Of a stretch of DNA of 64,000 bases, positions 49,081-61,808 are shown one piece after another. Origin of the DNA: Thermoclostridium stercorarium subsp. stercorarium DSM 8532. Its GTDB lineage: Bacteria; Bacillota; Clostridia; DSM-8532. The stretch covers positions 2,021,465 through 2,085,464 of the forward strand of contig NC_020134.1 in NCBI RefSeq assembly GCF_000331995.1, read 5' to 3'. Within the stretch, counting starts at the first letter, position 1. Each line of letters starts with the position of its first letter. The notes beneath the pieces were generated by a model. That model did no database searches, was not told the DNA's origin, and was given only the letters and a program-made list of their open reading frames with translations. Position numbers and translations under genes: made by a program.

Positions 49081-49467
49081 ATGGATATCAGCGTTAAATT
49101 TAGATTAAAAAATAATAGACTGCCTTTAGAATATAGAAAATCAATAATCAGTTTTTACAAAAATATTTTATCTAATTACAAAGATGGAAAGTGGAAGGAC
49201 AAATTTTATAAAAATCAAGATCCTATTCAAAAAAAATTTAAGACAAAAAATATACATGAAATTAAACCGTGGATGATTGACGAACTGGATATAAAATTTA
49301 ATAACAATGAAGTAAAAAAAATTATCGTGACTCATTACGGAATTAAATTTCCTGTAACCATTGGGTGTTTTTACTTGAAAGGTAATCCTGTTTTACTTAA
49401 TTTTTTGCATTGCTCAGGTATGGGCAGCAGGACTTCCAGCGGATTTGGTCATTTTAAAGTGATTTAA
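49081..49467 (+). CDS. cas6: Unusually short Cas6-like CRISPR RNA endonuclease
   Basis: 128 residues, about half the normal Cas6 length. The first ~50 residues (MDISVKFRLKNNRLPLEYRK...) look like the N-terminal strand and helix of Cas6, and the last ~45 residues (VTHYGIKFPVTIGCFYLKGN, then GMGSRTSSGFGHF) have the C-terminal glycine-rich loop of the family. The ~100 residues normally between them are absent, with the frame kept. No His is present in the N-terminal helix where the general base is usual. Known role: cut pre-crRNA in repeats. Whether this form works is unclear. The ATG at 49081 fits AAAAGGTG; an in-frame GTG lies at 49069. First gene of the cas operon. Confidence 0.75.
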   Translation: MDISVKFRLKNNRLPLEYRKSIISFYKNILSNYKDGKWKDKFYKNQDPIQKKFKTKNIHEIKPWMIDELDIKFNNNEVKKIIVTHYGIKFPVTIGCFYLKGNPVLLNFLHCSGMGSRTSSGFGHFKVI

Positions 49468-49482
49468 CAAGGGGTGTACCTC

Positions 49483-51192
49483 ATGCCTCAAATCACTTTG
49501 CGATTAAATAACTTTTTATATAATGCCAGTATTTACGGCTTTATACAGGTATTAAAAACCATGGAAAATGATTTTCTTGATGTTAACTATACTATCAAAG
49601 GAAATACATTAACGTTTTCCAGTGACGTCTTTGAAAATTTCACAGAATACTACCTAAAAACCTTAATTAATAAATTTGAAAAAGATACAAATTATTACAT
49701 GATTATTGATAAATATCATGCGCTCATATCACATGATTTTACAGAAGATAGCTCTCAGTATAAAGAGTTTCTTAATTTTTTGAGCAGTAAATTAAAAAAA
49801 TTTAAGGGTTATGAAATTATTAAAAAGAGAAATGAAAAAACAGACATATTAAACACATTAGATTTGCTTAAAAGAAAAGATATAGATTTTGATACAAAAA
49901 AAATTTATCTTAAGGAAATTGTGGAGTGCCTTGAAAAGCACAAAGACATTTTCTTATTAAAAGATATAGTTAATACAAAAGTAAAACTATTTTGGGATAA
50001 TATTGCTTTTCTTAATAATAACAATAAAAATAAAGAAATGTCCGATTGTTATAAAAATACATTTATTGACCCCGTAATACAATATCTTAATAAAAAACAG
50101 AGGAAGAGTGCCAATCAATGCATTGAATGTGGCAGGAATGTTTCTTCCCAAAAAGAAGGTTCGATGAGATGGTTAAATGACGTAGGAGTAGATATAAAAA
50201 GGAAAATATCTAACTACTGGAATTTTAATCCGGATATTGTGGTGTGTCCTATATGTAAAACAGTTTATTCGTGCGCTCCATTAGGTTTTTATATTGTGGG
50301 AAACAACGCCCTGTTTATAAACAGCAATACAAGTATTGAGGCTATAATTAGAATGAATAACTTAAACTTTAAAATGAATACATTGGTCGACATTGAGAAC
50401 GCCGTTTATTACAGTATTGCAAGAGCATTTAACTATTTAAGCAATGTAGAATCCGCCAAAAAGCAAGCAAACTCAAATATACAAGTTGTAAAACGTGTGG
50501 CATATAAAAATGGAACAACGTACCAATTTAATATTATTGTTCCTTCGGTTTTAACAGTCTTAAGTGAAAGAGAAAAAGAATTTAGGCAATTATTGAATAA
50601 ATACTATATGTTTAGTCAGAAAGCAAATAAAAAAGAACCAAGAAAGATAATTAACATATATGATAAAACCATAGAAAATATATTGAATAACAGGGACTTA
50701 TATATGCTTTTATATGACATTCTGAAGGACGCATTGGATTCCAGTCAGAAAGTTGATTTTCTTTATGCAGTTTTAAAGGTTCAAATATCAAATTTAATGA
50801 AAGGGGTCACCGGAATGGAACGAACGGAGCGAATTAATAAATTAGAAAAAACAACATTTTTTTTGAGAAAGTGTGGTTTAGAAATAAAAGGCACCTTTGC
50901 GGACAACAATGAAATCCAAGAAAGCGGAAAACTTAAATCTTATATTTATAAATTATTAACTGCTTTAAGAATAAATAATGTATCTCTATTTATGGATACA
51001 GCAATAAGAATCTTCAACGATACTAAAAAGGAAATACCTATTACTTTTATTAATATGCTTAATGACCAAAATCAATTCAAAATATTGGGTTATGCATTTG
51101 TATTGGGATTATTAGGACAAGATGATGTTAGCGATAAAAATGAATTTAATAATAAAAATTTAACAGAAAAGGGTGAGGATGAGAATGAATAA
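49483..51192 (+). CDS. cas8: Cascade large subunit Cst1 (Cas8, Tneap type, CXXC-CXXC)
   Basis: 569-residue Cas8 of the Tneap/Cst subgroup of type I-B, the large subunit that recognises the PAM and recruits Cas3. The diagnostic zinc finger is present: CIEC at about residue 213 and CPIC at about 255. The N-terminus MPQITLRLNNFLYNASIYGF is typical. The ATG at 49483 has AAGGGG eight bases upstream. It starts 15 bases after cas6 and overlaps cas7. The code is very AT-rich, like the rest of the locus. Confidence 0.85.
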   Translation: MPQITLRLNNFLYNASIYGFIQVLKTMENDFLDVNYTIKGNTLTFSSDVFENFTEYYLKTLINKFEKDTNYYMIIDKYHALISHDFTEDSSQYKEFLNFLSSKLKKFKGYEIIKKRNEKTDILNTLDLLKRKDIDFDTKKIYLKEIVECLEKHKDIFLLKDIVNTKVKLFWDNIAFLNNNNKNKEMSDCYKNTFIDPVIQYLNKKQRKSANQCIECGRNVSSQKEGSMRWLNDVGVDIKRKISNYWNFNPDIVVCPICKTVYSCAPLGFYIVGNNALFINSNTSIEAIIRMNNLNFKMNTLVDIENAVYYSIARAFNYLSNVESAKKQANSNIQVVKRVAYKNGTTYQFNIIVPSVLTVLSEREKEFRQLLNKYYMFSQKANKKEPRKIINIYDKTIENILNNRDLYMLLYDILKDALDSSQKVDFLYAVLKVQISNLMKGVTGMERTERINKLEKTTFFLRKCGLEIKGTFADNNEIQESGKLKSYIYKLLTALRINNVSLFMDTAIRIFNDTKKEIPITFINMLNDQNQFKILGYAFVLGLLGQDDVSDKNEFNNKNLTEKGEDENE

Positions 51193-52108
51193 ACCAGCAC
51201 TCCACTTGGGTATTATTACAGAAAATATTAGTATCAACTATGGAGAAGGTTTTGGTAACGTTGCAACTTTAAAAAAATTTACCAGAAGTGACGGGACTGA
51301 ATATCCCTACGCCTCTCCGCAAAAATTAAGTTACTGTATTAAATCGGTTGCAAATTTTATAGATACACCTGTGGAAAAATCAGGAACAGGTAAAACAGTC
51401 TGGCAATTTTCAAAAAGTGCGACCATAAAAGAATATCCTGAGATTGATTTTTCAGGATACTTAAAAACAGAGAGTACAAGTAAAGGTGAGAAAAAAAACG
51501 AAGCAGAAGCCGAAGATAATAAAAGCGAGGGCAGCCGTTCGCGAACAAAGGTCCTTCGTGTAAGTCCGTTAATTGCTTTAGAACCTTATAGAGCAGATAT
51601 GGACTATCAAACAAATTTGTCTCTTGTTAAACGTGGCGGTGGTGAAGGCAGTAACATCGTCCAAAATGAAATTCAATATTCTTACTGTACCTATACAGTA
51701 TCTGTGGATTTAGACAGATTGGGAATTGACGAAAATGATAAAATAAAGCTTCCCAATGATGAAAAAATAAAAAGGATGAATGTAATGCTGGATGCAATTC
51801 AGTTCCTCTACGCCGATATAAAAGGCAGAAGAGAAAATTTATCCCCCATTTTTGTCATAGGTGGCATTTACAGGAGGAAAAATCCGTTTTTTCTCAACCG
51901 TATTAAATTTACCGAAGGACATAAGTTAAACATCATAATGCTCAAAGACACAATTAAAGATGCAGGAATTCAAGAAGATACAATAGTGGGATATCTCGAT
52001 ACTTCATTAGACAACAATGAAGAAATTATAAATGAATTCAATCCAATGACTATTGGGGAATTTTTCAACGAACTGAAAAAACGGGTGGTAAAAGTATATT
52101 CAGAGTAA
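51185..52108 (+). CDS. cas7: Cascade backbone subunit Cas7 (Cst2/DevR family)
   Basis: 307-residue RAMP protein that polymerises along the crRNA. The N-terminus LGIITENISINYGEGFGNVA and the middle SPLIALEPYRADMDYQTN fit Cst2/DevR. A charged, low-complexity loop (about 92-120, GEKKNEAEAEDNKSEGSRSR) is the thumb-like insert. Three ATGs are close together; 51185 is chosen, with GGTGAGG upstream, overlapping the end of cas8 by eight bases. Confidence 0.87.
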   Translation: MNKPALHLGIITENISINYGEGFGNVATLKKFTRSDGTEYPYASPQKLSYCIKSVANFIDTPVEKSGTGKTVWQFSKSATIKEYPEIDFSGYLKTESTSKGEKKNEAEAEDNKSEGSRSRTKVLRVSPLIALEPYRADMDYQTNLSLVKRGGGEGSNIVQNEIQYSYCTYTVSVDLDRLGIDENDKIKLPNDEKIKRMNVMLDAIQFLYADIKGRRENLSPIFVIGGIYRRKNPFFLNRIKFTEGHKLNIIMLKDTIKDAGIQEDTIVGYLDTSLDNNEEIINEFNPMTIGEFFNELKKRVVKVYSE

Positions 52109-52172: not shown

Positions 52173-52883
52173 TTGAAAGGAATAAGGATTGAAATAGAAC
52201 AACCTTTTGCTTCATACAGTGTACCGGGAAGTTTTCAATTAAGGGAAACATTTCCTTTACCTCCTTATTCTACGGTAATAGGGATGGTTCATAATGCCTG
52301 TGGATTTAAAAAATACGTAGATATGGATGTTAGTGTCCAGGGAAATTGGGCATCCGTATGTAATGACATATATACCAGATATGAATTCAGCCCTAACAGG
52401 CAGTTTGAAAAAGAACGCCACCAAGGATATTTTGAGGAAAATGGCCGAAAATACGGAGTTGTAATTGGAGTAGGCCATGTGGAACTATTGGCAGATGTTA
52501 ATTTGCTTATTCATATTGTTCCTAAAAATCAAGATATCGTTGAAACAATATATAATGGATTATTGTACCCGCAAAATTTTCTTTATTTGGGCAGAACGGA
52601 AGATATAGTTAGAATTAACAGTTTGGAAACAGTGGATATAATAGAGGAAATATTGGATTATGAAGAAATTCTGAAATATAATGCATATATTCCTGTAAGT
52701 TATAAGGTAGAAAATGAAATCGGAACTATTTACAGACTGAATAAGAAATATATAATAAATAAAAGTCAGACGAGATATTGGGAAGAACGAATAGAAGCAT
52801 TATTTGCGCCCAAAGAAAAAGAATTAACTATTGGAACTAAAATTTACAAAGACAGTAAAGGTGATTTAGTTTTCTTGGCGTAA
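52173..52883 (+). CDS. cas5: Cascade subunit Cas5 (type I-B)
   Basis: 236-residue Cas5 that holds the 5' handle of crRNA. The Cas5 signature is near the N-terminus: EIEQPFASYSVPGSFQLRET, then FPLPPYSTVIGMVHNACGF. The start is TTG with AAAGGTAGGG upstream. It follows cas7 by 64 bases. The array begins 180 bases downstream. Confidence 0.87.
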   Translation: MKGIRIEIEQPFASYSVPGSFQLRETFPLPPYSTVIGMVHNACGFKKYVDMDVSVQGNWASVCNDIYTRYEFSPNRQFEKERHQGYFEENGRKYGVVIGVGHVELLADVNLLIHIVPKNQDIVETIYNGLLYPQNFLYLGRTEDIVRINSLETVDIIEEILDYEEILKYNAYIPVSYKVENEIGTIYRLNKKYIINKSQTRYWEERIEALFAPKEKELTIGTKIYKDSKGDLVFLA

Positions 52884-52884
52884 C

Positions 52885-52930
52885 ATCTGTCGATCATTAA
52901 TAACCACTATGTTGCAGAGGCTCGACAGAT
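52885..52930. repeat. Inverted repeat in the CRISPR leader, with repeat-like loop
   Basis: ATCTGTCGA (52885-52893) and TCGACAGAT (52922-52930) are perfect nine-base inverted arms right after the cas5 stop. The 28-base loop contains TCATTAATAACCACTATG, which matches the CRISPR repeat core at 11 of 14 bases over its best part. The rest of the leader (to 53063) is AT-rich. Confidence 0.5.
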
Positions 52931-53063: not shown

Positions 53064-53390
53064 GTTAATAATTAACCATTATGGAATGTAAATGCTGTTC
53101 AGCAATCCCTTCGCATCATACGGTGTTGCGTTAATAATTAACCATTATGGAATGTAAATAGTGTGAGTTACGAGCTTACAATATACGATGAAGAAGTTAA
53201 TAATTAACCATTATGGAATGTAAATTTGTTTATAGCCTTTTCAAATGTGCAATGCAATATAGTCAATAATCAACCATTATGGAATATAAATGAATCAAGC
53301 AAATTTCGTTCTATTCTGGATGCAAATTTATATTTCGATATAAAATACGATGGAGCCACTTGTTAATAATTTACCATTACGAATGAAAAC
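53064..53390 (+). CRISPR. Small CRISPR array (5 repeats) between cas5 and cas3
   Basis: Three identical 30-base repeats (GTTAATAATTAACC...GGAATGTAAAT) at 53064-53093, 53130-53159 and 53196-53225; a fourth with three changes at 53262-53291; and a fifth, strongly changed and about 29 bases, at 53362-53390. The first three spacers are each 36 bases; the last interval is 70 bases. Decay at the cas3 end places the leader on the cas5 side and transcription on the plus strand. The array ends 28 bases before the cas3 start. Confidence 0.95.
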
Positions 53391-53418
53391 AGTTATTGCG
53401 ATGTCAGGAGAATAAACT

Positions 53419-55632
53419 ATGGAGTATTATGCTAAATTGAACCCGACTCAAACCATTCTTGAGCATACACAAAAAGCATTGGAACTTTATAAGCAACTAA
53501 AATTATTATATTCCCGCCTTTTGTCCAATGAGGAATGGGAACTTCTTGAACTTGCCATAATATGCCATGACTTAGGAAAAACTAATGCCTTTATGCAGAA
53601 ATTCTTTTACCAAAAACTTAATATTCCTTTTCCCTTGGCATTAGAGCATAATATACCTCAAATTTATCATAACCACCTTAGCTGTGCTTTTATAGATTAT
53701 AAAGACGTTATTAGCAAATACGGACTTAAAAATTATAAAATTCTCTGTAATTGTATATATTATCATCATAATAGGCCTGAAACCGATAAAAAAGTGCTGA
53801 AATATTATATTAAAAATTGTTTACCTAATGATATTGAAAACTTTAATTTTCCACTGTTGGCATATAATTTTAGGTCAAAACTAAACTGTGAATTCACGCC
53901 ATATATTGACATATATAATAATGGCCTCTTTACTGATTTCGAAAACTTTAAAAGATATGTGATGATTAAGGGCTTATTACATAAAGTTGATTATTGTGCA
54001 AGTGCTGGTATAGACATTATTGAGGACAATACCCGAGACGAAGACGGATTATCTGCTGCGGAAAAAATAAAATGCATTTACCCTAACCTTAGAGACATTC
54101 AAATCTATATGAATGCTAATAAAGATAAAAACCTGATAATTGTCGGTTCCACCGGCATAGGAAAAACAGAAGGAGCTATTTTGTGGATAGGAGAAGAAAA
54201 AGGATTCTACACCTTGCCTTTGCAAATTGCCAATAATTCAATTTATGCCAGAATAAAAGACAAAATTAAGTATAAAAACGTTAAGCTTCTTCATTCAAAC
54301 GCCATTTCAACTTATATAAGAGAAGAAAAAGAAAACGGAAACACTGATGCACAGGAAGAGTATCAAAAGGCAAAACTTTTCTCCTCCCCTCTTACTGTTT
54401 GTACAGTTGACCAAATATTTAAATTTGTTTTTAAATACAATGGGTTCGAATACTTATTGGCTACCTTGGCATACTCAAAAATAGTAATAGATGAAATCCA
54501 AATGTACAGTCCGGAAATCGTAGCCAGTATTTTATACGGTTTAAAATTGGCAACCGGCCTTGGGAGTAAATTCGCGATTATTACCGCAACATTTCCACCT
54601 ATACTTGGAGATTTAATGGAAAGATATAAAATCCCATTTAAAGGGCCTGTATTTTTCCATAAACCAGGCTTACCTACAAGACACCGTATAAAATTTTTTG
54701 AAAACAGAGATTTCGATTTAGAACTAATTATTGATTTGGCCGAAAGATACAAAGTTTTGATTATTACAAACACTGTATCAAAAGCTCAGAAAATATATGA
54801 AAAATTAAAAGACAAGGTTAATACGTGGATAATACATAGCAGATATATCAGAAAACATAGAAGAATGCTGGAAAATAAGATATTGGAGTTTGCCCCGAAC
54901 AAAAAAGACAGAAATAGTAATCCCGGTGTGTGGGTATCAACACATGTTGTTGAGGCAAGTTTGGATATAGATTTTGATTACATACTTACTTCTATGTGTA
55001 GTATTGAAAGTCTGATACAAAGAATGGGAAGAGTATGGAGAGACAGGTTATATGATGCCGAAACGCCAAATGTCTATATATACGATAACCACGATGGTCT
55101 CAATTCTGTCATAGATTCTCAGATCTATTCTTTTTCATGTAATGCTGTTAAAGCATATGATGGAAAATTATTATACGAAACTGATATTCAAAATGATAAA
55201 CAGGCCATGATGGAAATGGTATATGACAGGAAGAAAAATCCTGATATTTTATCGTCAGAATATTTCAAAGAAATTGTTAAGCGAATTGATAGCCTTGATA
55301 ACCTTCTTCCTTATGACTTAAAAATCAAAGAAGTTGTTAAACTTTTCAGAGGCATCAATAGTATTACCATAATACCGAGTTCCATCTATAGCGAACTAAA
55401 AAAATCCGGTAAAATCAGTGAATGGGAATACAAGCTGAACCAAAACATTTCAATGAAAGAAAAACAATCAATTAAAGATGAAATAAATGAATACACTTTA
55501 GAACTTCCTTGGTATGACAAGGGTAATCTTATCATACAGGAAAATATCATTTACCCTCATAGTGACATTAATTTATGGAATGGTGAATACGATTTCGATG
55601 AAAACACATTAAAAGGAATAGGGTTAATTTAA
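53419..55632 (+). CDS. cas3: CRISPR helicase-nuclease Cas3 (HD + helicase)
   Basis: 737-residue effector nuclease recruited by Cascade to shred target DNA. An N-terminal HD nuclease domain has ICHDLGKT (HD at about residues 50-51) and YYHHNRPE. The SF2 helicase follows, with Walker A STGIGKTEGA (about 244), motif II VIDEIQ (about 358; DEIQ rather than the common DEVH), motif III ITATFPP, motif V THVVEASLDIDFD (about 509) and motif VI QRMGRVWRD (about 536). AGGAG precedes the ATG. It lies downstream of the array rather than next to cas5, so it may depend on array read-through or its own promoter. No cas1, cas2 or cas4 follows. Confidence 0.93.
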   Translation: MEYYAKLNPTQTILEHTQKALELYKQLKLLYSRLLSNEEWELLELAIICHDLGKTNAFMQKFFYQKLNIPFPLALEHNIPQIYHNHLSCAFIDYKDVISKYGLKNYKILCNCIYYHHNRPETDKKVLKYYIKNCLPNDIENFNFPLLAYNFRSKLNCEFTPYIDIYNNGLFTDFENFKRYVMIKGLLHKVDYCASAGIDIIEDNTRDEDGLSAAEKIKCIYPNLRDIQIYMNANKDKNLIIVGSTGIGKTEGAILWIGEEKGFYTLPLQIANNSIYARIKDKIKYKNVKLLHSNAISTYIREEKENGNTDAQEEYQKAKLFSSPLTVCTVDQIFKFVFKYNGFEYLLATLAYSKIVIDEIQMYSPEIVASILYGLKLATGLGSKFAIITATFPPILGDLMERYKIPFKGPVFFHKPGLPTRHRIKFFENRDFDLELIIDLAERYKVLIITNTVSKAQKIYEKLKDKVNTWIIHSRYIRKHRRMLENKILEFAPNKKDRNSNPGVWVSTHVVEASLDIDFDYILTSMCSIESLIQRMGRVWRDRLYDAETPNVYIYDNHDGLNSVIDSQIYSFSCNAVKAYDGKLLYETDIQNDKQAMMEMVYDRKKNPDILSSEYFKEIVKRIDSLDNLLPYDLKIKEVVKLFRGINSITIIPSSIYSELKKSGKISEWEYKLNQNISMKEKQSIKDEINEYTLELPWYDKGNLIIQENIIYPHSDINLWNGEYDFDENTLKGIGLI

Positions 55633-55960: not shown

Positions 55961-58921
55961 TTACGGTTCAATTCCACTGACCAACACGCCTGAAATGTAT
56001 ACAGTGATCCTGTCATTACTGCCGTAAGAGGTATTTGTGCTGAAGGAATAATCATTGGTTTGAATGTAATCTGTCCAGTCAGCTTTGGAGAACCTGTTTT
56101 GAACCTCAATACTCTGATTGGGCTGCAGATAACCCGCTCCATCGGTAAAGCCGGTTTCCAGGTAATAATCCGCGCCTTCTTTGGGTTCAGCCATTTTGAC
56201 AAAAGTCCCGGTTATATTATTGCTTCCTACACTGGACCAGTCACACCAGAAGTTCTGATCCTTTTCCCCGTCAATGGTATAGTAGTAACGGATTTTAACA
56301 TCGGATAATCTAATCGGAGTTGTTCCGGTATTGGTAAGCCTGTATCTCGGCATTATTCCGTTTGTTTTATCGGAAGTATTGCCGTTGAACATCTGTATCT
56401 GAATAACTCCCGTTTCTACCTGCCTTGAATCGGTTATATTAATTGTCAGAACAGGATCGGTTCCTCTGTCAAAATCAAAGGTCAGAGTAACCCTGCCCAC
56501 AGGCTGGTCTGCAAGATATTCCCTGAAAATAGTAACCTCATCACCGTCAATACTGTAATCCCTACCCAAAACCAAAGCCTCGCCGTCCTTTTTAACCGCT
56601 AAAAGAGTATTTCCGTTCGGCACTAATTTAACCTTCACATCCCGGCTTGCGTCAGGATTTTTGTCAAAGTCTGCCGTAGTCGGCACAATTGAAGCACTGG
56701 TAGTGGTATCAATAATGTTTACTGTAAGAACCGGATCTCTTCCTGCGCTGAAATCAAATATAAGCTGAACAGTACTGGTATCGAAGGAATTAAGAAAACT
56801 TTTCAGAATTGTAACCGTATCGCCGGATACCGTATAATCCGTCCCTTCCCTTAAATAAGTATTTCCGTACTTAATTCCGTTCAAGGTATTGCCGTTTAAG
56901 TTCATTACAACCTGAATATTCTCCTGCTTAGCAGGATTTTTATCAAACGTGGCATTGGTAATTGAAATGGAAGAGTTGTTTTCACCGCTGCCACCTTCCG
57001 GCTCTACTCCAAATACCAGAACCCCGTCATCATATACAGGTATATAAACCGTCTTAACGGTATTACCCGATGTTACTCCTTTAATGTCCCTGAAAGAATA
57101 GTCATTATCATTATTCCAGAAATTGGTGTTCTGAGGAGCCGCAATTCTGAACTGGACTTCCTTTCTGTATGCCGACTGACCGCCCGGATAAATTTTGGTT
57201 CCGGTAAAGTCTACATTTACATAATAGATATTTTCGGCCTCATTCCACGGATGCAGGCCCGTAACTTTAGCTCCGGCGTTGTAGTTGGTGGTTATTGTAA
57301 CATCACTTGCACTGTATCCTGCTTCAATAAGCTCGGTTAAATCCACAAAGTAACGGAATGAAAGTTTGTCGGCTACTCTTGCGGGCCAACCGGACTGGTT
57401 ATGAAGCAGAGCCTTAATTTCTATGAAGTTTTGCCCGGAAGCATTGATACCCGCCATGACAAAAAATTCATCATTTGTTATTTCTTCAAAGGCGTTCAAA
57501 TCGGGTATCGGACTTCCTCCATAATCTTCATACATCTTGGCGAGAGCACCGACAAATCCGGCATTATAGTCGCAGGCTACTTCATTATTTATATAATTGT
57601 TTATATCATCGGTATAACTGTCATCTTTTCCGGGTCCTCCCACCAAAGCTCCGATAAGTACATGTCTGTGATAATCGGGGACGCTCATGCTGTCGGCCCA
57701 GGAACTGTGGGCTGTTCTGTGATGAGGCCTTTTGGGGGGATTTACTCCGAAACCTACCACATAGCTTCTGCCGGAACTTCCTAAAGCATAATCAATCTGC
57801 TGTTTTGCAAAATCATTGTATATGGCGGCTTTCTCCCTGCTGCAGCCTTCCCAGTCGGCGTAAACACTGGCCAAAAATGCGGTGGTGGTCGCATAACGGA
57901 GAGAACCCCAGCTGTCAAGCCATGCCAGCCCTTTAGGCGTATAATGTACCCGTTCACCGTTATATCCTACCGACCAATAATCCAGATGTCTCTCAATAGC
58001 TTCCTTATAAATCTGCTTACCGGTTATTTTAGCCAAAAGCAGGCATGCGCCGTAATGAACATCGTCCCAGCAATGTGCCCATTTATATGATATTATATTG
58101 GTCTGCGGCTCCGTTCCCCAATAGGCTACATACTGTTCGGCCTTGTTAAGATATGTCTCATCTCCGGTCGCCAGGTATAGCCATACACCAGCCCATGAAA
58201 GCTCGTCATAGAAGCCGCTGTGTGAATCATAAAAACCACTGGCTGCGGTATATCCGCTGTCACTCTTGGTAATTTCAGCAAAGTTATACAGTTCCTTCGC
58301 ATGCTGTATACATGTCGCCGCGTATGCAGGGTCTCTGTCCGCAAATACCACCGCTGCTGATGCCAAAGCCGCAGCGGCTTCGGCGACTACCGTAGAGCCG
58401 GGATTAGCCAAATCCACTTTATACGCCGGCCTGTCCATCTGCATTACTTCAGCCGGCCCCCACCACGAGTGATCCAGATGACCGTCCCCGACCTGATAAT
58501 AAAATACATTTGGCGAAGGGTGGCATTTTATAAGGTAATCGCTGACCCATTTGATGGCATCCAAAAGATAGCCCATTTGCCCGCTTCGTTCCAAAGCTTC
58601 TTCGGCCTCATACGCAGCCCATGCAAGCATTGTCTGGGAATAGGCCATTGGAAGGTTAAACTTTACGTGATCACCGGCATCATACCAACCGCCGGTAAGA
58701 TCAAGGCCAACGTCCGCTCCGTCGTTAAGTCCGGAATCTCCCCGCCAATTATCCCTTTTGTTTTCCGGCAGTTTTCCAGACCTTTGAAATTCATAAAACA
58801 TAATAGCTTTTTGTAATGCTTCCCCATAATTATATCCTGCCGCTTCAGCCTTAGGAGTATGTATAAAGAGACCGGTGACAAGTAAACTGATTATAATTGC
58901 AAAGGACCAAAATTTTCGCAT
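55961..58921 (-). CDS. celZ: GH9 cellulase CelZ-like (Avicelase I)
   Basis: 986-residue secreted processive endoglucanase. Signal peptide 1-28 (cut near AEA-AGYNYG); GH9 catalytic domain (about 29-460) with [11 protein letters not shown] (base and nucleophile-water Asp pair) and [18 protein letters not shown] carrying the acid Glu; CBM3c-like module (about 475-625, [20 protein letters not shown]); two X2 modules (about 640-830, each with ATFDKNP or TADFDKNP and FDFSAGRDP or FDFDRGTDP); and a C-terminal CBM3b (about 835-986, [17 protein letters not shown]). Catalytic residues are intact. Length and order match C. stercorarium CelZ. It is the second gene after celY. GGGAGGAGG precedes ATG. No dockerin, so a free enzyme. 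Confidence 0.95.
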
Positions 58922-58982
58922 ATTAAAACCTCCTCCCTTCAACGGTTTCAAATGTATTCTCACCATATACAACGTCTAATTC

Positions 58983-59063: not shown

Positions 59064-61808
59064 TTACGGCTCTATACCGTATACCAGATTCCCAGAAATG
59101 TATGCCGTAATTTTATTAAAATCCACATAACTGCTTGCCGTCGGATTAAAGGAATAATCATTGGTCTGAGTATAATCGGTCCAATCAATCTTTGAAAATC
59201 TTCCCTGAACCTCAATTGAAGCTCCGGGCTCAAGGGTTCCGGCCTGTGGTGTAAAACCGATTTCAAGGTAATAGTCAGCGCCGGTCGTGGCACCGTCCAT
59301 CTTCACGAAGGTTCCGGTTACATTGCTGCTGCCTATGCTTGCCCAGTCGCACCAGAAATTCTGGGGTTTATCACCGTCCACGGTATAGTAATACCTTAAC
59401 TTTACCTCAGACAAAGGTATACTTGTATTCCCGCTATTGTAAATCCTGAATCTTGGCATTATGGAATTGCTTATCTCCTGAGTATTGGCATTGAAGGACT
59501 GAATTATAAGTACTCCTTCAACCGGTTCCACGGGCTCCACAGGCTCTTCTCCGCCGCCGGTATCAATGATATCTATCGTTAACGTACGGTCAAGACCTGC
59601 GCTGAAGTCAAAAAGAAGGGATATGCTTCCTGTGGCTTGTCCGGCCAGGAATTCTTTCTTTATGATTATTACGTCACCGTTTACAATATAATCCACACCT
59701 TCTATAAGATAGGAAGACCCGGATTTTATTCCAAGCAGGGTATTGCCGTTATATGTTACCGTTACACTAATGTCTTCCTGATTATTTTTATCAAATGTAG
59801 CCGAAGTAGGAGTAATAAACGAATCATTAGCCTGCTCCGAGCCGAAAAGAATGGAATACAAACCGTTTGCTATTGCGATATCACACTGTGCCCAGAATCT
59901 GTGATAATTGAATACAGGAGCCTTGCCCTCATTGTATGCCTGCTGCAACTTTGGATAATCAGGATCGTTCAAATATTTGGACCGAATATCCAGGAAAGTG
60001 ACGCCCGGCTCAATTCTGTCGCCATTCGGCATGGTTCCGGACCAGCCTTGCGGTACATATACTTCCTGTTCAAAGAATCTTACATAATCCTCCCTTGTTT
60101 CTGGAGCCGAAAGCCCCTTGTCATCCCTGTACAGATTCCACATACGGTCAAGCAGTTCTTTCGCAAGGTTCCGGGCTTCATCATCACCGGAGGTTTTTGC
60201 GTAGTATAGCAAGGCATTGGCAAGAGAACCGGCAGCGCCCAGATCGGTTCCGTAAGAGACTACACTTACATGAAGATTAGGATTGCCTGTATATGTGCCT
60301 GTCCATGTGTCAGGTTGCCCGGACCATTCTAAATTGCCGGGTATTTCAAATGTTCCGTCGCTGTTAAGCCTTACAACGGATTTAATCCAGTCCACCCACT
60401 TGTCAAGCAGTTGTTCAGCTCTGGTGTCGCCCGTCAGATAATAATATTCGGCCACTCTTTGCATTGTCCATGCCTGGAATCCAAACCAGGTATTGCTTCC
60501 GGGATCAAGGTAGACCGGGTGTTCCTCATAAGCCATGCCATAGAATGTGGATATACCTGCAGGCAAAGTCTCATAACGTCCTTTATATGAATTGGTCGCT
60601 CCGCCGGCTATGGCACCTTCAGCCGACTGTAACCACTGATAGAATTCCAGCTGACGTTCCAAACTCTTTGCCCAGTCATTTGCGCCGTTGGGCGATTCAG
60701 GCTTAAATTCAGGATCGTTTGCCAGAATCCATGCGGTCATCGGATTCTGATAACCCGCGTGAACATGGCTGCAGCCTATAATCCATGCCCAGTCCGCCGT
60801 AATACCGCCACCCCACGCATAATACCAGGACAAGAGATAATGAGCTGCATCATAACCGGTTCCGGCCTGTTTTGAGTCGCCTATCTTTCTGAAATACTTG
60901 TCAAACATCGCATACCGGAGGTAGTCTCCCATCCTGGAAGCTTTTTTAACATACTGACTGAGATTTACACCATGCTCCTTCGCCCACTGATTAGCCCAAT
61001 AAGTTGCTTGAATTGCCCTGGCATCCGCATCAGGCGCATTGGTATACTTAAATTGCGCCGAATATTGGCTGTCCCCGACGAAAAGATCCAGAAATCCGTT
61101 CCTCCCGCCAATGGTCAAATCATCCCAACAAGGCTGCGGAATCGTTTCCCACACAGATTCCTGGCTTCCTCTCTGGAACGTATTGATATAGGCCGGTGAA
61201 CTGATCCTGTCAGCCCGTCTTCCGAAACCATACCAGTTGTCTACGTCAAGCAGCCAGTGCATTCCGTAGATCGTATTGGTTCCATAGGTACTGACCAGCT
61301 CATTGTAAATTGGATCTATTCCTACGGGAGCTGAAAAATCCAGCTGTGAAGGATACATACTGGGCTCTTCCCATTCGGGAGCATATGTGGCGGGTTTAGC
61401 GGGATTGTATCCTGCCATGCTTCTGTTAGGCTGATCCTGTTCGGTAGGTATCATATACTTTTCGATAGTCTCCCAAGCCTTCATAAAATATGAAAAATCT
61501 CCGGTAAATTTTCCGTACAAAGCTTCCAGCCAGAGGTAATAGCTCATGGCTTCACTGGTGGTAAGATGCCCATAATCAGGTGCCTCGACTATCAATGTCT
61601 CGACGGCGTGATATGGTATCCCATGAGAGCTGAAATATCCGTTGGAAGGGTCATGAAGTTCTTCCCACAATTCCAAGAAGCGTTGCTTATAGGGATCATC
61701 CGAAGAAGCATATGCCGTAAGTTCGCTTTTCAGTGACAATTGGAGCATGATACCAATTAAAAACACCAGGGTCAATAAAGAGATTCCTTTCATCAATCTT
61801 CTCTTCAT
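59064..61808 (-). CDS. celY: GH48 exocellulase CelY-like (Avicelase II)
   Basis: 914-residue secreted cellobiohydrolase working from reducing ends. Signal peptide about 1-35; GH48 domain (about 38-660) with [18 protein letters not shown] (catalytic acid Glu) and [20 protein letters not shown]; an X2 module (about 665-750, [12 protein letters not shown]); a short Pro-Glu-Val linker ([12 protein letters not shown]); and a C-terminal CBM3b (about 768-914). It is first in the operon with celZ downstream, and the pair is known to act in synergy on crystalline cellulose. AAAGGGG lies eight bases before the ATG. No dockerin. Confidence 0.95.

Follow-up and report, generated by a model that had tools for sequence, protein, structure and literature searches.

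The 64,000-nt stretch of the Thermoclostridium stercorarium subsp. stercorarium DSM 8532 genome analysed here (hereafter the window; C1:2021465-2085464 in a genome assembled as a single contig of 2,974,379 bases, 100 percent complete) carries a type I-B CRISPR effector operon that is headed by a short cas6b gene. Behind this gene follow cas8b1, cas7, cas5, a CRISPR array, and cas3, the four cas genes all open and in order. The features of this spare operon are as follows:

49081..49467 (+): short cas6b (128 aa); GTG 49069 is a possible earlier start
49081..49239 (+): N-terminal Cas6b homology (residues 1-53), covering the first strand, the initial helices, and the catalytic loop of domain 1
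49240..49287 (+): junction (residues 54-69), matching no Cas6b position significantly
49288..49464 (+): C-terminal Cas6b homology (residues 70-128), covering the final strands, a helix, and the glycine-rich loop of domain 2
49474..51192 (+): cas8b1, 572 aa; ORF and family match
51173..52108 (+): cas7, 311 aa; ORF and family match
52173..52883 (+): cas5b, 236 aa; ORF listed with a TTG start, family match
52887..52928 (+): leader inverted repeat CTGTCGATC...CGACAG, common to the genome's two other arrays
53064..53391 (+): CRISPR array, 5 repeats GTTAATAATTAACCATTATGGAATGTAAAT; spacers of 36, 36, 36, and 70 nt
53419..55632 (+): cas3, 737 aa; HDLGK, GSTGIGKT, DEIQ, and QRMGRV motifs

The open cas8b1, cas7, cas5, and cas3 genes bear out the position assigned to the short gene in a preliminary description of this DNA, i.e., first in an otherwise complete effector operon. 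That description mentioned neither the embedded array nor the missing adaptation genes. The leader-bearing array, with its 70-nt last spacer, is located between cas5 and cas3, within the effector operon; its repeats start at 53064, 53130, 53196, 53262, and 53362, and the last two, including the one at 53362, are degenerate. Adaptation genes, a common but dispensable companion of type I-B effector operons, do not lie beside this one: the genome's only Cas1 match is at C1:1789851-1790687, outside the window, and neither cas2 nor cas4 was recognised by eye in the ORF list across 44-60 kb of the window. The 420 nt upstream of the short cas6b contain no repeat-like element (best 14/25, with a 95th percentile of 16 for shuffles), and promoter and terminator scans were at chance. 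One of the four embedded-array spacers had no match in an exact search of viral contigs, and 11-nt seeds from these spacers, read one base late, had no hit in the window outside the array and one in L026, an 11-nt stretch with 14/36 identity overall. Two large secreted enzymes, encoded on the reverse strand at window positions 55961-58972 and 59064-61808, adjoin the cas operon; these are presumably a GH9 and a GH48 cellulase.

The short cas6b is an open in-frame ORF with an ATG start that encodes 128 aa, or 132 aa from the upstream GTG. Its product matches Pfam Cas_Cas6_C (PF01881) at 2.2e-13 with 51.6 bits (cut-off 23), PADLOC Cas6b at 1.4e-30 with 104.8 bits over two separate stretches, and TIGR01877 at 1.3e-07 with 32.3 bits, the last below the NCBIfam equivalog cut-off of 58.65 bits. 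Against a profile of 49 full-length Cas6b proteins, residues 1-53 align to positions 1-51 (39.4 bits) and residues 65-128 to positions 179-240 of 240 (63.6 bits); residues 54 to ~69 add no score. About 130 middle positions, ~52-181 of 240 in the model, are absent in frame. K27, Y43, and K51 are present within the N-terminal part, and near the other end GMGSRTSSGFG aligns to invariant columns as the glycine-rich loop before the last strand. The ORF, family, and profile matches confirm the earlier description of a half-size Cas6, with N- and C-terminal elements joined in frame in 128 residues. The best match of the protein among the loci was Clostridium bowmanii (L062), by a small margin, and not the genus's main I-B systems, and no PDB chain matched it by sequence at E 1.

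Two other ways of dividing the protein were tried and set aside. A junction after residue 33, within the region of the first helix and with residues 34-69 coming from domain 2, is suggested by the Pfam alignment, but residues 34-53 score ~6 bits as N-terminal versus ~1 bit as C-terminal sequence (21-protein profile), and the closest N-termini (L071, L086, and L091) align through residue 53. Treating residues 53-74 as an additional piece derived from the last part of domain 1 was not significant, as an equal score was reached by 124 of 1000 shuffles with the 49-protein profile and by 563 of 1000 with a five-protein profile.

We surveyed the size of Cas6 in genomes sampled at one per species, with one strain of the host. 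Within the order, Cas6 was found in 12 of 33 genomes (14 places), and the only short one is the T. stercorarium gene. For the class (Cas6 in 76 of 391 sampled genomes), the open frames shorter than 200 aa among the matches listed were the short cas6b (134), a 73-aa piece in G051 that is a contig-edge fragment, and a frame of 96 aa in G163. For the phylum (Cas6 in at least 144 of 398 genomes), those among the matches listed were again the short cas6b and two frames with a missing N-terminus, one of 178 aa (G754) and one of 187 aa (G632) with one stop and, by eye, a transposase-like ORF upstream. Across 84,980 species genomes, a scan limited by pattern yielded 43 Cas6 loci, 42 of them encoding 233-291 aa and the 43rd cut by a contig end. 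The search for other ~130-residue Cas6 proteins proposed in the preliminary description thus returned none among the order, class, and phylum matches listed or the 43 loci. In these sets the other Cas6 genes are full size, truncated by contig ends, or clearly remnants, and the short form is unique, which weakens the reading as a natural minimal Cas6. Literature on truncated, minimal, single-domain, and orphan Cas6 yielded no description of a half-length Cas6; if active, the short protein would be, to our knowledge, the smallest Cas6. The G163 frame (L052:6168-6443) is a remnant: it comprises 91 aa from the C-terminal end of a Cas6, its glycine motif is altered, and it stands alone, as inspection of 15 kb by eye revealed no cas genes around it.

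Structure prediction of the short protein alone, also proposed earlier, was of low confidence: AlphaFold2 reached pLDDT 61.7 and pTM 0.34 (31 sequences), versus pLDDT 96.2 and pTM 0.90 (35 sequences) for the full-length Cas6b of a congener (L085). Only a helix (16-42), two strands (72-85 and 88-100), and a second helix (103-112) were formed; the first and last strands were unformed, and the glycine loop had pLDDT <50. Since this is a monomer model based on an alignment of full-length rows, and may mislead for a deletion protein, it counts against a stable monomer and not against a dimer. Mapped on the L085 model, domain 1 keeps strand 2-9 and helices 19-33 and 35-43 and loses strands 51-57, 73-80, and 107-117 and helix 83-96. 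Domain 2 keeps strands 182-195 and 198-210, helix 213-222, the glycine loop, and the C-terminal end, and loses strand 126-140 and helix 155-170. By profile mapping and model, the inter-domain cleft is lost as well. Among solved structures, those nearest in fold to the full-length protein of the congener include Pyrococcus Cas6 and Cas6-related structures (3qjj, 3ufc, 3pkm, and 3i4h; Z 24.7-27.3), led by 3qjj (Z 27.3, rmsd 2.3 over 229 residues), 3ufc (Z 27.2, rmsd 2.2 over 229 residues), and 3pkm (Z 25.3, rmsd 2.4 over 224 residues). Pyrococcus Cas6 has two full ferredoxin-like domains, an arrangement that is impossible for the short protein. With the middle positions missing and a poor model, two ferredoxin-like (RRM) domains were not found in it; because this feature was tested and is absent, we file the gene as a truncated Cas6b and not as a working Cas6.

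The preliminary description had drawn attention to the lack of a His in the usual N-terminal region. This is true of the short Cas6b but uninformative, as it is normal among 21 full-length relatives: none of their first 60 positions is a His column (maximum 4/21), and 8 of the 21 have no His at all in the first 60 residues. The highest count at any N-terminal column of the 49-protein set is likewise only 7/49, and the missing His was therefore rejected as a sign of inactivity. Among the full-length relatives, K49 is invariant (49/49) and Y42 is found in 45/49, the rest having Phe; the catalytic-loop residues K27, Y42, and K49 of the clade are all present in the short protein, as K27, Y43, and K51. 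In an alignment to Pyrococcus furiosus Cas6 (3pkm), with positions counted along the printed alignment, the residues conserved in the clade pair with the chain as K27 with Y36, Y42 with H51, and K49 with K57; we take these three chain residues to be the published Y31, H46, and K52 if the chain has a five-residue tag. Because the clade residues on the Pyrococcus triad are K, Y, and K, the missing His is, on these alignments, a feature of the clade and not peculiar to the short protein. The SPxxVRxH segment (S in 45, P in 46, R in 44, and H in 37 of the 49 full-length proteins) is lost in the short Cas6b.

What remains of the protein is well preserved. In a fit that drops the inserted residues of the N-terminal piece, the short protein keeps 6/6, 8/8, 10/10, and 15/16 of the columns conserved at 100, 95, 90, and 80 percent among the 49 full-length proteins (medians for left-out full-length proteins: 1.0, 1.0, 1.0, and 0.94). 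Its mean identity to the full-length set is 35.2 percent (lowest member 29.1, middle 36.8), and its leave-one-out profile score is the lowest of 22, at ~92 bits versus 94.6-134.6 for 21 full-length proteins. By these measures the retained parts are little decayed or not decayed at all, which suggests that the deletion is recent or that the protein is still under selection.

The genome has a main I-B system at C1:1785-1797.7 kb, in which a 238-aa Cas6b heads cas8b1-cas7-cas5-cas3-cas4-cas1, with the genome's only Cas1 match, and a cas2-like ORF (cas4 and cas2 named by eye); the pattern used counts 63 repeats in its array. A third, cas-less array lies at C1:1503.3 kb (3 kb around it read). The embedded and main repeats are identical at 22 of 30 positions, with 3/9 in the first nine letters and 19/21 in the last 21, where both mismatches fall in a tiny hairpin loop, and TGGAATGTAAAT is identical across the embedded, main, and third-array repeats. 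All are nearly unstructured (MFE -0.6, -1.1, and -0.6 kcal/mol, no better than shuffles). The leader inverted repeat precedes the first repeat by 177 nt in the embedded, 176 nt in the main, and 119 nt in the third array, and AGACAGAAAC is common to the embedded and main leaders. Among the loci compared, the main I-B systems of the genus give the best scores for Cas8b1, Cas7, Cas5, and Cas3 from the spare operon, by a slight margin for Cas3; identities to the host's own main system are 32, 46, 44, and 40 percent, respectively. No close ortholog of the spare operon was found in 391 class genomes, where no Cas8b1 was nearer than those of the genus's main systems (33-34 percent), and none was found by a pattern-based Cas8b1 scan of species-genome contigs or in plasmids (DNA, near mode). 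Phages searched with the short Cas6 and viral contigs searched with query A1 also gave no match. On the L026 reverse strand, two spacers of the main array, numbers 43 and 58 with the first taken as 0, have 20 leading nt and 30/34 letters in common, and one further spacer is 54 nt long.

We consider it probable, at roughly two chances in three, that an in-frame internal deletion ended autonomous processing in the spare operon and that its crRNAs are supplied in trans by the main Cas6b. The in-frame loss of the ~130 middle model positions takes away the last three strands and second helix of domain 1 along with the first strand and helix of domain 2. The short protein would then be unable to form the cleft between two domains in which the repeat RNA is held, and would make no crRNA alone. 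Instead, the embedded-array transcript would be cut by the full-length Cas6b of the main system, presumably 8 nt before the 3' end of the repeat GTTAATAATTAACCATTATGGAATGTAAAT, leaving an 8-nt 5' handle AUGUAAAU on the crRNAs. These, and perhaps the main crRNAs too, would be loaded into the spare Cas8b1-Cas7-Cas5 complex, which would recruit its own Cas3. Judging from sequence, in-trans processing is likely because a full-length Cas6b and repeats with a near-identical 3' half are found in the same genome. Since the embedded array carries a homologous leader, any new spacers would come from the main Cas1-Cas2. In the I-B system of Haloferax, interference is reported to proceed without Cas6b once a crRNA has been produced by other means (PMC4326828). 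Most likely, the finding has an ordinary meaning: a second operon has suffered a deletion in a gene that was redundant.

Three features count against this reading, namely the undecayed retained parts, the conservation of all three positions aligned with the Pyrococcus triad, and the open frame; against in-trans supply in particular stands the agreement of the embedded and main repeats at only 3 of their first nine letters. Between the two readings in the preliminary description, however, an in-frame deletion that leaves processing to another enzyme is the better supported, given the full Cas6b, the near-identical repeat 3' halves, and the poor model, and the minimal dimeric Cas6 loses ground. 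The latter would have the joined halves form one beta-alpha-beta-beta-alpha-beta unit, with a dimer rebuilding the cleft and cutting the repeat. The retained elements, taken in order on the full-length model, could indeed give one such unit, and the triad-equivalent residues, glycine loop, and conserved columns are all kept. A dimeric Cas6 described as lacking an active-site His, as the short protein does, also exists in the crenarchaeal SsoCas6, although that protein is full length and its dimer is reported to form via the C-terminal domains, not to complete one domain (PMC3652601). Against such a minimal Cas6 are the uniqueness of the short form in the samples (for the phylum, among the matches listed), the first and last strands that AlphaFold2 leaves unformed, and the loss of both the SPxxVRxH segment and the inter-domain cleft, and we regard it as unlikely.

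We are a shade more doubtful of a single-domain Cas6 in which the deletion fused the first half of one ferredoxin-like domain to the second half of the other and in which the catalytic and glycine loops would act in a ~128-residue homodimer or together with the full-length Cas6b; if true, this would in effect be a return to the single-domain ancestor proposed for the protein class. Just as doubtful is a non-catalytic leftover whose glycine-loop half, serving as a cap or regulator, would bind the crRNA 3' handle or pair with either the spare Cascade or the full-length Cas6b. The conserved residues kept in both halves and a gene that has stayed open at the head of the operon are consistent with such a role, as is the copurification of Cas6b with I-B Cascade, perhaps via the crRNA (PMC4326828), but the fold prediction is poor and no relative in the samples (among the matches listed, for the phylum) has a short form that would indicate selection. 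Finally, a very recent deletion, or a sequencing or assembly artefact, in one genome and without biological history would fit the sampling of one genome per species and the undecayed look of the retained parts, but is very improbable for a complete one-contig genome with a clean in-frame junction and open flanking genes.

Compared with known systems, the short protein resembles the Cas6b of type I-B (PADLOC PDLC02103/01783; PF01881; TIGR01877) in both ends, element order, first operon place, catalytic-loop residues, and glycine-rich loop, and differs from it in lacking the middle ~130 of 240 positions and in falling short of the NCBIfam cut-off (32.3 vs 58.65 bits). The operon itself is similar to the extra I-B operons described in Clostridioides difficile, which are reported as cas6-cas8b-cas7-cas5-cas3 without adaptation genes alongside a complete I-B system (PMC6079278); unlike these, cas6 is half-length here and an array lies between cas5 and cas3. 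A table in the same review gives C. stercorarium as type I-A, whereas the families matched here are I-B. If the short protein is dead, in line with the in-trans supply that we favour, the locus would be a clean natural example of two I-B effector complexes, whose repeats are related but distinct, that depend on a single Cas6b; an active short protein would put to the test whether a two-domain Cas6 can run with one domain.

Two further observations concern the rest of the genome. A third Cas6, of another clade (C1:1820685-1821404; 261 aa by ORF scan), has no cas8 or cas7 ORF recognised by eye in the surrounding 17 kb, and its nearest large same-strand ORF, of 461 aa, has a CARF-type look by eye. 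In addition, a two-repeat mini-CRISPR lies upstream of the main cas6b at C1:~1797.70-1797.87 kb and is also present in L085 and L069; none was found upstream of the spare operon, or upstream of cas6 in a fourth congener, L006. The spacer-like stretch of the mini-CRISPR matches the opposite strand immediately ahead of the start of cas6, beside CCC or CCA, in runs of 15-16 nt if every sixth letter may differ. With the register chosen by hand, equal matches were obtained for 7, 2, and 0 of 2000 shuffled spacers in three congeners. By analogy, the mini-CRISPR looks like a CreR-type guide, a class treated in a review (PMC12737573), that may repress its own cas operon.
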